Shown here: in pieces, positions 6,293-56,324 of the stretch
Layout: each line of letters begins with the position of its first letter
Numbering within the stretch: position 1 is the first letter of the stretch
Origin: Sphingobacteriales bacterium
GTDB lineage: Bacteria > Bacteroidota > Bacteroidia > Chitinophagales > CAIOSU01
NCBI GenBank assembly: GCA_027483645.1
Contig: JAIXUD010000004.1
Span: 62,001-126,000, forward strand
Length of the DNA stretch: 64,000 nt
Direction of reading: 5' to 3'
Notes under the pieces: generated by a model
Databases searched by the model: none
What the model was told of the DNA's origin: nothing
The model's input: the letters and a program-made list of their open reading frames with translations, nothing else
Position numbers and translations under genes: made by a program

Positions 6293-7171
6293 TTACCACT
6301 CCCATATACCCGGCTCCACAATCTCCGCAAGGTTGGTATCTGGGTCATGGAAGTAGAAGGAGCGCCCACCACGTGGCCATTCCACATCTTGTAGTATGGT
6401 GATGCCTGAATCCACAATCTTTTTTCGCCAAGCATCGTAATCTTCCTTACGACATTCAAAGGCAAAGTGCTGCTGCCCGTAGCCAAAATGGGGTGGGAGG
6501 GAGGTGTCATTTTTGGTAGCCTCGGCAATAAAGCCCAGCAGCACCGACGTCCCCGCACGGAAGAAGATATGCCTACCTTCCACTTCGTTAAGGCATTCCA
6601 AACCTAACTTGCCCTCATAGAAAGCGCGGGTGCGCTTGAGGTCGGTTATATAGATGCAGGTTTCTTTTACTTTGGTGAAAGTAAGCTGGTTATGTACTTC
6701 GACTCCGCTCAGTATGACATTAGTTAAGGGTTGCGAGCTGCGGGTTGTGTTTTGCTTTATTGCTAATTCAATAATCTCTTTATGATCGAAAGCTAGCTCT
6801 GGCAAAGCATCTATCGCAAACCACTGCGCATCTCCAGCATCATCACCTGCGGTTATTTTGGCTTGTTCCAAATCTACATGCGCTAAGTATGCTACCGAAA
6901 CCATTCTACCCCTTGGGTCGCGGCCCGGCCTGCCAAAGGTGCCTAGTTGTTCTACCTTGCCAACCTTTAAGCCCGTTTCTTCTTGCAGCTCGCGCTTGGC
7001 TGCTGTTTCAAGGTCTTCATCTTTTTCTACAAAACCGCCTGGCAGGGCCCATTTACCTTTGAAAGGATCGTTTTTACGTTGGATGAGCAGTAGGGATGTT
7101 TTGCCATCTCGGCCCTGGCCAAATACTACCGCATCAACGGTTAGAAATATTTCGCTGGTGTATTTTGTCAT
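6293..7171 (-). CDS. NUDIX hydrolase fused to a glyoxalase/VOC domain, 292 aa
   Basis: Residues ~1-140 are a NUDIX domain with WALPGGFVEKDEDLETAAKR followed by ELQEETG, the full Gx5Ex7REUxEExGU box. Residues ~165-292 are a vicinal-oxygen-chelate (glyoxalase/bleomycin-resistance) domain: CIYITDLKRTRAFYEGKLGL ... FYFHDPDTNLAEIVEPG. The linker between them, around NVILSGVEVHN, is encoded by a dispersed repeat (6694-6726) that also occurs at 17683. The gene therefore looks like two neighbours joined in frame by that repeat. ATG 7171 is preferred to a TTG at 7192. Substrates are unknown. A sequencing error creating the fusion is possible but not needed, since the frame is open throughout. Confidence 0.82.
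   Translation of the reverse strand: MTKYTSEIFLTVDAVVFGQGRDGKTSLLLIQRKNDPFKGKWALPGGFVEKDEDLETAAKRELQEETGLKVGKVEQLGTFGRPGRDPRGRMVSVAYLAHVDLEQAKITAGDDAGDAQWFAIDALPELAFDHKEIIELAIKQNTTRSSQPLTNVILSGVEVHNQLTFTKVKETCIYITDLKRTRAFYEGKLGLECLNEVEGRHIFFRAGTSVLLGFIAEATKNDTSLPPHFGYGQQHFAFECRKEDYDAWRKKIVDSGITILQDVEWPRGGRSFYFHDPDTNLAEIVEPGIWEW
6694..6726. repeat. Dispersed TGTCAT-type repeat inside a coding region
   Basis: The core GTACTTCGACTCCGCTCAGT and the following ATGACATT match, in reverse complement, the junction repeat at 17683-17710 (2 mismatches in 28). It lies within the NUDIX-VOC gene and encodes the interdomain linker. It shares the TGTCAT end with the other repeats at 30841, 30917, 34397 and 41552. 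Confidence 0.8.
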
Positions 7172-17682: not shown

Positions 17683-17710
17683 AATGTCATATTGAGCGGC
17701 GTCGAAGTAC
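17683..17710. repeat. Dispersed TGTCAT-type repeat
   Basis: Contains TGTCATATTGAGCGGCGTCG and then AAGTAC. Reverse complement matches 6694-6720 with two mismatches. It lies between mltG and the acyl-CoA reductase gene. Confidence 0.8.
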
Positions 17711-30840: not shown

Positions 30841-30903
30841 TGTCATCTCGAGTTTTTCGCGAGGGACCTTCCGGCGATTATGGACTGAACTTGAATTATG
30901 AAT
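30841..30903. repeat. Solo end of the GIY-YIG element family
   Basis: Begins TGTCATCTCGAGTTTTTCGC then GAGGGACCTTC, close to the 35-bp ends of the element at 41552-42036. Similarity continues inward (GATTATGGACTGAACTTGAATTA versus GATAAGTACGAAATTGAATTA). No GIY-YIG gene follows, so it looks like a decayed or non-autonomous copy. Confidence 0.75.
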
Positions 30904-41527: not shown

Positions 41528-41551
41528 TTTAATGTTTGCTTTTCCCCATCC

Positions 41552-42036
41552 TGTCATCCCGAGTTTTTCACGAGGGACCTTCGGGCCGATAAGTACGAAA
41601 TTGAATTACCGATAACCTCTTTTCTTTTCCACATTTGTATATTAGTGGAAACATCTTTAAATGCAACACAATTATTACATCTACATCGTTACCAATGAGA
41701 GCAAAACCACGTTATATACAGGCGTAACAAGCAACTTACTGAAAAGAATTTTAGAACACAGGGAAAATAAAGGGGAAGATAAAACCTTTGCAGGCAAATA
41801 CTACTGCCACAACTTGATATACTATGAGCACTTTACGGATATATCCCATGCAATAGTAAGAGAGAAGCAGATTAAAGGTTGGAGTAGAGCTAAGAAAATT
41901 GTGTTGATTGAAAAGATGAACCCGGAATGGGAGTTTTATGACCCATATAATTTTTTGTAGTTGAAATAATGTTCACCTTGATTCCAGTGCGTTACCCAAT
42001 TGCCCGAAGGTCCCTCGTGAAAAACTCGGGATGACA
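41552..42036. mobile_element. 485-bp GIY-YIG element with perfect 35-bp terminal inverted repeats
   Basis: Left end 41552-41586 (starts TGTCATCCCGAGTTTTTCAC, continues GAGGGACCTTCGGGC). Right end 42002-42036 is its exact reverse complement. The only ORF between them is the GIY-YIG gene at 41661-41960. A related solo end is at 30841, and other TGTCAT-type repeats are at 6694, 17683, 30917 and 34397. This suggests a small mobile unit moved by, or parasitising, the endonuclease. No flanking target duplication was established. Confidence 0.7.
41661..41960 (+). CDS. GIY-YIG endonuclease-domain protein (UPF0213/YhbQ-like), 99 aa
   Basis: Single-domain nuclease: YYIYIVTNESKTTLYTGVTS carries the YIY-x(n)-YTG variant of GIY-YIG, LLKRILEHRENK the conserved Arg and His, and HAIVREKQIKGWSRAKKIVL the conserved Glu and basic helix. 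The order and about 99-aa length match UPF0213 proteins. It sits centrally between perfect inverted repeats, which is unusual for a housekeeping nuclease. Confidence 0.9.
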   Translation: MQHNYYIYIVTNESKTTLYTGVTSNLLKRILEHRENKGEDKTFAGKYYCHNLIYYEHFTDISHAIVREKQIKGWSRAKKIVLIEKMNPEWEFYDPYNFL

Positions 42037-42090
42037 TTACGGGTTAGGCAAACGAGTTATATCATACAGCAGATGTTGCTACCTTTTACG

Positions 42091-42098
42091 TAATTTTG
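42091..42098 (+). promoter_or_regulatory. -7 box (TAATTTTG) next to the 42103 start codon
   Basis: Exact TAnnTTTG with 4 bp to the ATG; predicts a leaderless transcript. Confidence 0.45.
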
Positions 42099-42102
42099 TC
42101 GT

Positions 42103-56269: not shown

Positions 56270-56324
56270 GTCATTGCGAGGATTGACACGAAGCTTTTCG
56301 TGTAGTAGCATGACGAAGCAATCC
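56270..56324. repeat. GTCATTGCGAGGA...GCAATCC dispersed repeat, copy 1
   Basis: Starts GTCATTGCGAGGATTGACAC, contains the hairpin ACACGAAGCTTTTCGTGT and ends TGACGAAGCAATCC. Related copies are at 59146-59200 and, inverted, 59292-59347. The 56124-56402 stretch holds nothing else that I can support. Confidence 0.7.

Follow-up and report, generated by a model that had tools for sequence, protein, structure and literature searches.

The window analysed here, a single stretch of 64,000 nucleotides, carries a compact unit in which one small gene lies between two copies of the same 35-bp sequence (Table 1). These two arms are identical at 35 of 35 bases in inverted orientation, and with their flanks included the identity covers 42 nt at 93%. 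The 35-mer occurs three times in the window against zero expected, and the third occurrence is the solo end that the initial annotation had placed at 30841, which proved to be real. Inside the unit (41552-42036) the sole open reading frame of at least 60 aa encodes a GIY-YIG protein, and among frames of that size there was no DDE, serine, tyrosine or HUH transposase. The original description of perfect inverted ends enclosing one small GIY-YIG gene is thus borne out. Three further sites in the window match the repeat pattern described below and belong to other repeat families.

Table 1. Repeats and gene of the window, with positions counted from its first nucleotide.
Feature	Position	Strand	Basis
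Left REP arm, 35 bp, TGTC tag, core ATCCC	41552..41586	+	Self-comparison of window; 20 genome copies
Right REP arm, same 35 bp inverted	42002..42036	-	Self-comparison of window
Class-A GIY-YIG nuclease gene, 99 aa	41661..41960	+	Pfam PF01541, 57.1 bits; AF2 pLDDT 92.3
Solo REP copy, family of the 35-bp arms, 3 mismatches, gene-less	30841..30875	+	
REP-pattern match, other family, core ATTGC	56270..56293	+	Exact pattern match
REP-pattern match, other family, core ATATT	17686..17707	+	Exact pattern match
REP-pattern match, other family, core ATACT	6697..6718	-	Exact pattern match

The Pfam GIY-YIG score of the gene is to be read against a cut-off of 22.6 bits. Its AF2 model, predicted with confidence, was compared with solved structures, matches below Z 5 being taken as noise. 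The nearest folds were Slx1 (Z 7.7 over 92 residues) and the UPF0213 protein BH0048 (1zg2; Z 7.2 over 76 residues), followed by I-TevI (Z 5.8) and UvrC (Z 5.6). All of these fall under Z 8, so they show the fold only. Residues Y8, Y19, G21, R29 and E68 are invariant in 20 of 20 aligned sequences, in keeping with the Y, Y, R and E conserved in GIY-YIG domains, and the profile A1 matched the solved UPF0213 proteins 1zg2 and 1ywl with 66.9 and 51.3 bits, respectively. By sequence and modelled fold, the window gene is a member of the GIY-YIG superfamily of the UPF0213 kind. UPF0213 proteins are usually listed with their role unknown. The subfamily to which the window gene belongs is called class A below.

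Twenty copies of the 35-mer were found in the 4.27-Mb source genome when up to three mismatches were allowed; the reversed-pattern control gave none. Ten of these copies form five clear head-to-head pairs with no gene, the arms being 81-96 bp apart. Fourteen loci were checked for a second arm: the gene-less pairs are L002, L004, L012, L015 and L017, the gene-bearing unit is L007, and the remaining loci have one recognisable arm each, L003 with a degenerate second one. As the initial annotation had supposed, gene-less relatives of the unit exist, and the count of copies with and without the gene that it proposed stands at five clear pairs and one gene-bearing unit among 20 copies, nowhere near the hundreds of copies unconnected with GIY-YIG genes that would have spoken against it. 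Judged by eye, a TTGAATTACC-like subterminal stretch inside the arm is common to 9 of the 14 copies, either with each other or with the gene-bearing unit. An origin of the gene-less pairs by simple internal deletion was considered and rejected, as several of the pair centres resemble one another and not the gene-bearing copy. Because their centres are mutually alike, the pairs look like units that spread as pairs.

Of the 10 GIY-YIG genes in the same genome, 8 are small and stand-alone, and 6 are of class A by inspection (7 matches at E <= 0.001). Inverted repeats with a score of at least 25 flank all but one of the six class-A genes. These repeats differ in sequence, CGTCATTGCGAAGG.., CGTCATTGCGAGGA.. 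and GTCACCCTGAGCC.. being seen in addition to the sequence found in the window; the score at L026 is only 25, a value equalled by 135 of 1003 mismatched flank pairs. The sixth gene, L022, has two matches to the REP pattern, both on its upstream side. Exact matches to this pattern number 60 in the source genome, and five of them lie within 350 bp of four class-A genes, where about 0.1 would be expected by chance as estimated from their density.

The different flanking repeats have a common layout: GTC-A is followed by a variable core, then by GAG and a loop, and finally by CGAA/G with the complement of the core. Among 309 flanking copies, freed of redundancy and representing 51 cores, 201 have the exact complement of their 5-nt core downstream; 200 shuffles gave 33.6 on average and 50 at most. 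In Di Nocera 2013 (PMC3733652), the CGTC REPs are described as having a CGTC or TGTC tag, a stem starting with AT and a head-to-head dimeric arrangement, and as including Neisseria dRS3 and Rickettsia RPE-4/RPE-6. The window repeats resemble them in tag, start of the stem, dimers and copy number. The window copy begins TGTC, the flanking REPs fit a GTCA-led pattern whose reversed control is near zero, and the 20 copies with five gene-less inverted pairs match the multi-copy, head-to-head character of the superfamily. Judged from their sequence, the repeats of the window are TGTC-tagged REPs laid out like the CGTC REP superfamily and not the private ends of a transposon.

The resemblance has its limits. 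The superfamily is marked by a stem of 8-9 bp with a loop of 4-5 nt and, in most members, by a CCA tail; in the REP copies of the window's class the stems are short or imperfect, the loops longer and the tails of other kinds. Stems of 8-9 bp are present in the Azospirillum, Sinorhizobium and Neisseria types; no such stem was found in the window copy. The isolated 35-mer folded no better than its shuffles (z 0.08), nor did the L061 copy (z 0.07), compared with z of -3.7 and -4.9 for the strongly folding Azospirillum and Sinorhizobium copies, respectively. The CCA tail occurs in several alphaproteobacterial REP types and is absent from the window arm, which continues ..GGGACCTTCGGGC. A generic scan for perfect GTC-tagged hairpins with stems of at least 6 gave a weak signal, 55 on the inner and 26 on the outer side, probably because the stems are short in the window's class. 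With its poor folding and lack of a CCA tail, the window copy is an imperfect member of the CGTC REPs.

Class-A genes are widely distributed. A match was found in 106 of the 149 genomes of the window's class, probably Bacteroidia, the counts per genome possibly including some genes of a second subfamily, class B, since matches of the two overlap. When named genomes were searched with 12 class-A proteins, the best 80 loci belonged to many phyla. A first set of 110 loci yielded 106 genes in 105 loci, of which 101 genes had flanks of at least 150 bp. A REP (at most one mismatch) lay within 350 bp upstream of 77, downstream of 65 and on both sides of 54 of the 101. The corresponding figures were 1, 0 and 0 for the reversed pattern and 6, 8 and 0 for 83 neighbouring genes. 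Inverted repeats scoring at least 40 flanked 39 of 101 genes; mismatched flank pairs reached this score in 12 of 1003 cases, and neighbouring genes in 6 of 243.

The REP pattern had been drawn up from this first set, and a held-out set was therefore used. It comprised 80 further loci, reduced to 76 genes from 75 loci by the loss of three with short flanks, one with an open reading frame over 200 aa and one without a match. Within 350 bp, REPs were present upstream of 35, downstream of 32, on both sides of 25 and on either side of 42 of the 76 genes; the reversed pattern gave 0, 1, 0 and 1. In the zone 350-700 bp out, a REP was seen in 3 of 68 upstream segments and in 5 downstream segments. Two other kinds of gene served as controls, ParE (29 of 30 loci, one being too short, with flanks taken outside the domain match rather than the open reading frame) and class-B GIY-YIG. 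Neither had a REP nearby (0 of 29 each), giving a Fisher p of 1.4e-8 for class A against each control, either side being counted, with controls that were not matched by genome. Class-A genes are associated with REPs, and the case in the window is one example of a widespread partnership between nuclease and REP.

Flanking repeats as such are less distinctive. An inverted or direct repeat scoring at least 30 was found around 55 of the 76 held-out genes, compared with mismatched flank pairs showing an inverted repeat in 19 of 752 cases and a direct one in 24 of 750, and none at that score around the other 21. They are not peculiar to class A: at the same score class-B genes had direct repeats in 20 of 29 cases and inverted ones in 9 of 29, and ParE genes had direct repeats in 6 of 29. 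Direct repeats of up to about 300 bp are common around class-A genes, so a fixed pair of terminal inverted repeats is not typical. The initial annotation had suggested that the two arms are the terminal inverted repeats of a 485-bp unit that moves or homes; this part of it needs revision, as at other loci CGTC/TGTC REPs stand beside the gene singly, inverted or direct, or as complete dimers. At L222, two class-A genes stand in tandem with near-identical spacers and a 251-bp direct repeat on both sides.

Over the 149 genomes the REP pattern matched 3623 times and the reversed pattern 314 times. REP count and class-A count were correlated (rho 0.50, p 7e-11; reversed pattern rho -0.007), with the reservation that related genomes are not independent, and 56 of the 106 class-A-positive genomes had fewer than 10 REP matches. 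Among 26 further genomes, hand-chosen from the non-Bacteroidota rows of the best 80 loci, the totals were 1551 and 70 (control), unevenly spread, with none in one genome and several near the control level. Genomes with at least 20 REP matches and no class-A match were screened for other GIY-YIG genes. Three of them, G044 (687 matches), G051 (22) and G068 (32), are rich in REPs and have no stand-alone GIY-YIG gene, their GIY-YIG content being one or two long proteins of 457-613 aa. It follows that the gene can be lost or that another mover exists. The 687 matches in G044 lie on one 3.9-Mb contig, and in the part listed two REP types are often about 33 bp apart in like orientation.

Class B deserves a description of its own. 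It is a stand-alone GIY-YIG subfamily of about 83 aa that adjoins tRNA genes. This is so at nine of ten genus loci (L024, L025, L032, L038, L040, L042, L044, L048 and L052), the tenth, L046, being a fragment at a contig end. In a further set (L295-L324) of 33 class-B genes, a tRNA gene lies within 250 bp upstream of 17 and just downstream of 5 more, and the tRNA 3' end is directly repeated after the gene in 9 of the 33; beside class-A genes an upstream tRNA was seen in 0 of 108 cases. The direct repeats counted above for 20 of 29 class-B genes lie near tRNA tails, and at L318 the tRNA tail recurs at steps of about 368 bp. Class B thus has the look of a second kind of minimal unit, one that targets the 3' ends of tRNA genes.

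Whether the type of REP goes with the nuclease or with the host genome was examined on a protein tree of 191 rows, 136 of which had a REP core label; five class-B rows were unlabelled. Identical proteins and those under 70 aa were excluded from the tree and pair analysis, and pairs over 95% identity were skipped. The core changes 72 times on the tree, compared with 96.0 +/- 1.6 when the labels were shuffled (minimum 91, 300 shuffles). The proportion of protein pairs with the same core was 1 of 497 at 20-30% identity, 22 of 42 at 70-80%, 9 of 9 at 80-90% and 2 of 3 at 90-95%. Within one genome the core was shared by 2 of 29 pairs, against 865 of 9150 between genomes; there is no excess of sharing, and a comparison of only 29 pairs is by itself no proof of specificity. 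Taken together, these sequence comparisons suggest that it is the nuclease, and not the host genome, with which REP type is linked.

These results bear on the idea of a passenger or regulatory link, in which the nuclease, itself horizontally mobile or domesticated, has no part in moving the REPs, and these act around it as terminators or insulators. The small size of the gene and the usual position of REPs between genes fit this idea, and so does the lack of a REP match within 350 bp of 34 of the 76 held-out class-A genes. ParE genes, however, are also small and often mobile and have no REPs beside them (in genomes not matched one by one), nor do class-B genes; class-A genes of the same genome carry different REP types in 27 of 29 pairs, and close relatives of a nuclease in other genomes have their REP type in common. 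We regard this explanation as very unlikely.

An alphaproteobacterial class-A protein matched 35 plasmid records. Azospirillum lipoferum, Sinorhizobium meliloti, Novosphingobium aromaticivorans and Neisseria, found here by means of the nuclease alone, are all named as hosts of CGTC REPs in the earlier study (PMC3733652). Sixteen of the 35 records were taken and 14 genes counted, L285 and L287 being left out; the locus of Shinella sp. PSBB067 was assessed by eye. Inverted or direct repeats scoring at least 30 flank 12 of the 14 genes, a mismatched-flank control not being part of this set. On inspection most of these repeats were CGTC-tagged hairpins, and such REPs stand beside the gene in Azospirillum, Sinorhizobium, Rhizobium, Neorhizobium, Shinella, Novosphingobium, Sphingobium, Neisseria and Aeromonas. 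No flanking REP pair was found within 350 bp at the Rhizobium tumorigenes and Photobacterium loci.

Sites with and without the unit could be compared directly, and they are polymorphic. In A. lipoferum 4B a unit of 509 bp, consisting of a REP pair, the gene and a second REP pair, lies between sufB and sufC. Neither gene nor REPs were found at the sufB-sufC junction of A. ramasamyi, A. oryzae, A. sp. B510, A. argentinense and A. thermophilum. Shinella sp. PSBB067 (L294) has a REP-gene-REP unit at the same junction with a REP type unlike that of A. lipoferum (L273), and the two units are apparently independent. No target duplication was evident at the Azospirillum sites, where the intergenic flanks have diverged.

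At the site of the window unit, genomes G002 and G004 have both flanking genes with no REP and no GIY-YIG between them, so that the empty sites which the initial annotation had proposed to look for do exist. In G001 neither REP nor GIY-YIG gene was found in the 1.5 kb after the left flanking gene, a distance within which the right flank was not met with. G003 does have the REP there: contig C181 breaks inside it (32-bp match), and contig C482 stops shortly after a GGGATGACA, which is what the other end should give. From these two contig ends, some element is probably present in G003. Presence of the element at the same position in all relatives would have told against its mobility, and this is not the case. 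In G004 (L263) and G002 (L265) the site matching 41528-42102 of the window holds a small gene pair that on inspection resembles a ParE/RelE-type toxin-antitoxin, the toxin-like frame of G002 stopping early, and a similar pair follows the left flank, the only one found, in G001 (L264). This may be a small hot spot for insertions.

The empty sites bear on a second explanation, in which REPs spread by other means and the GIY-YIG gene parasitises them by a kind of homing, the nuclease cutting a REP and the gene being inserted by repair of the break. The fold is that of classic homing endonucleases, as the match to I-TevI indicates; G044, G051 and G068 have REPs without the gene, and the long direct repeats around many class-A genes could come from break repair at a pre-existing REP pair. 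Against this explanation, the gene-less sites described above (five in Azospirillum, those of G002 and G004 and, for the left flank only, that of G001) are also REP-less, which speaks for movement of the whole unit and not for homing into REPs; the REP core, moreover, follows the nuclease tree. Homing of this kind seems to us doubtful. Chance or an assembly artefact, for which there is nothing beyond the G003 contigs breaking at the REP, can be given next to no weight: zero matches were expected, a like arrangement occurs in complete named replicons, and the controls refute it.

We consider it probable that the window holds a member of a widespread two-part system, in which a class-A, UPF0213-like GIY-YIG nuclease would recognise CGTC/TGTC REPs and move them in the manner of REPIN-RAYT. 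The broader proposal, to which we incline with somewhat less assurance, extends this to the CGTC REP superfamily as a whole, with Neisseria dRS3 as a part of it: stand-alone class-A GIY-YIG proteins would be its missing dedicated mobility enzymes and so make up a second, non-homologous system beside RAYT, each enzyme reading its own REP stem. Cleavage and transposition of REPs by class A are what the sequences lead us to infer. The nuclease would bind the REP hairpin, or a folded REP pair exposed as a single strand or cruciform, and would cut beside the unpaired GTC tag like a structure-selective enzyme of the Slx1 type. Once freed or primed, the unit would be copied by host repair or replication into another intergenic site. 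In this way the nuclease would move its own gene-bearing unit and, in trans, the gene-less pairs, and the system would work like REPIN-RAYT with an unrelated enzyme. Against this reading count the three REP-rich genomes devoid of a stand-alone GIY-YIG gene, the 34 of 76 held-out genes with no REP match, the 56 of 106 class-A-positive genomes with few REPs and the poor folding of the isolated window repeat.

In many bacteria the class-A gene appears to encode the enzyme, missing for so long, behind the spread of one of the two main REP families. Palindromes of the CGTC type are spread over several phyla (PMC3733652), and a cognate nuclease would make the question of their mover directly testable. 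If the proposal is true, a large family of GIY-YIG proteins listed as unknown would acquire a role, and two unrelated nuclease folds would have evolved a like partnership with small genomic palindromes.

Among known proteins, those of UPF0213 (1zg2, 1ywl) are alike in sequence and fold; class A differs from them in being multi-copy, patchy in distribution and bracketed by REPs. With Slx1, the nearest solved fold, the likeness is in fold only. Slx1 is a eukaryotic nuclease for branched DNA that acts with its partner Slx4, and we know of no link between it and repeats. The free-standing GIY-YIG homing endonucleases (I-TevI and the phage Seg types) are alike in their nuclease fold and selfish spread. 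They home into cognate alleles, and to our knowledge a dispersed REP family never brackets them. The literature reachable by search, which leaves out most subscription papers and all preprints, yielded no report of a link between GIY-YIG proteins and REPs, and within the same literature the statement of the initial annotation that no transposition system with a lone UPF0213 GIY-YIG protein has been described is upheld. Nor do we know of a lone GIY-YIG protein as the enzyme of any prokaryotic REP or transposon.

The CGTC REP superfamily is said to 'apparently lack a dedicated transposase', its mover being left open (PMC3733652); here CGTC/TGTC REPs bracket GIY-YIG genes. In the same paper, REPIN-RAYT (REPtron) systems have a lone small nuclease gene with REPs around it, either single or in pairs, paired REPs with no gene, and enzyme-specific REP types in one genome (PMC3733652). 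All of these features have their counterparts in the present system. The enzyme and tag are different, being an HUH/Y1 TnpA-REP protein with GTAG in the one case and a GIY-YIG protein with GTC (TGTC in the window) in the other. A covalent tyrosine intermediate is not expected of GIY-YIG chemistry, unlike that of HUH/Y1. The layout in which the GIY-YIG gene is found parallels that of REPIN-RAYT.
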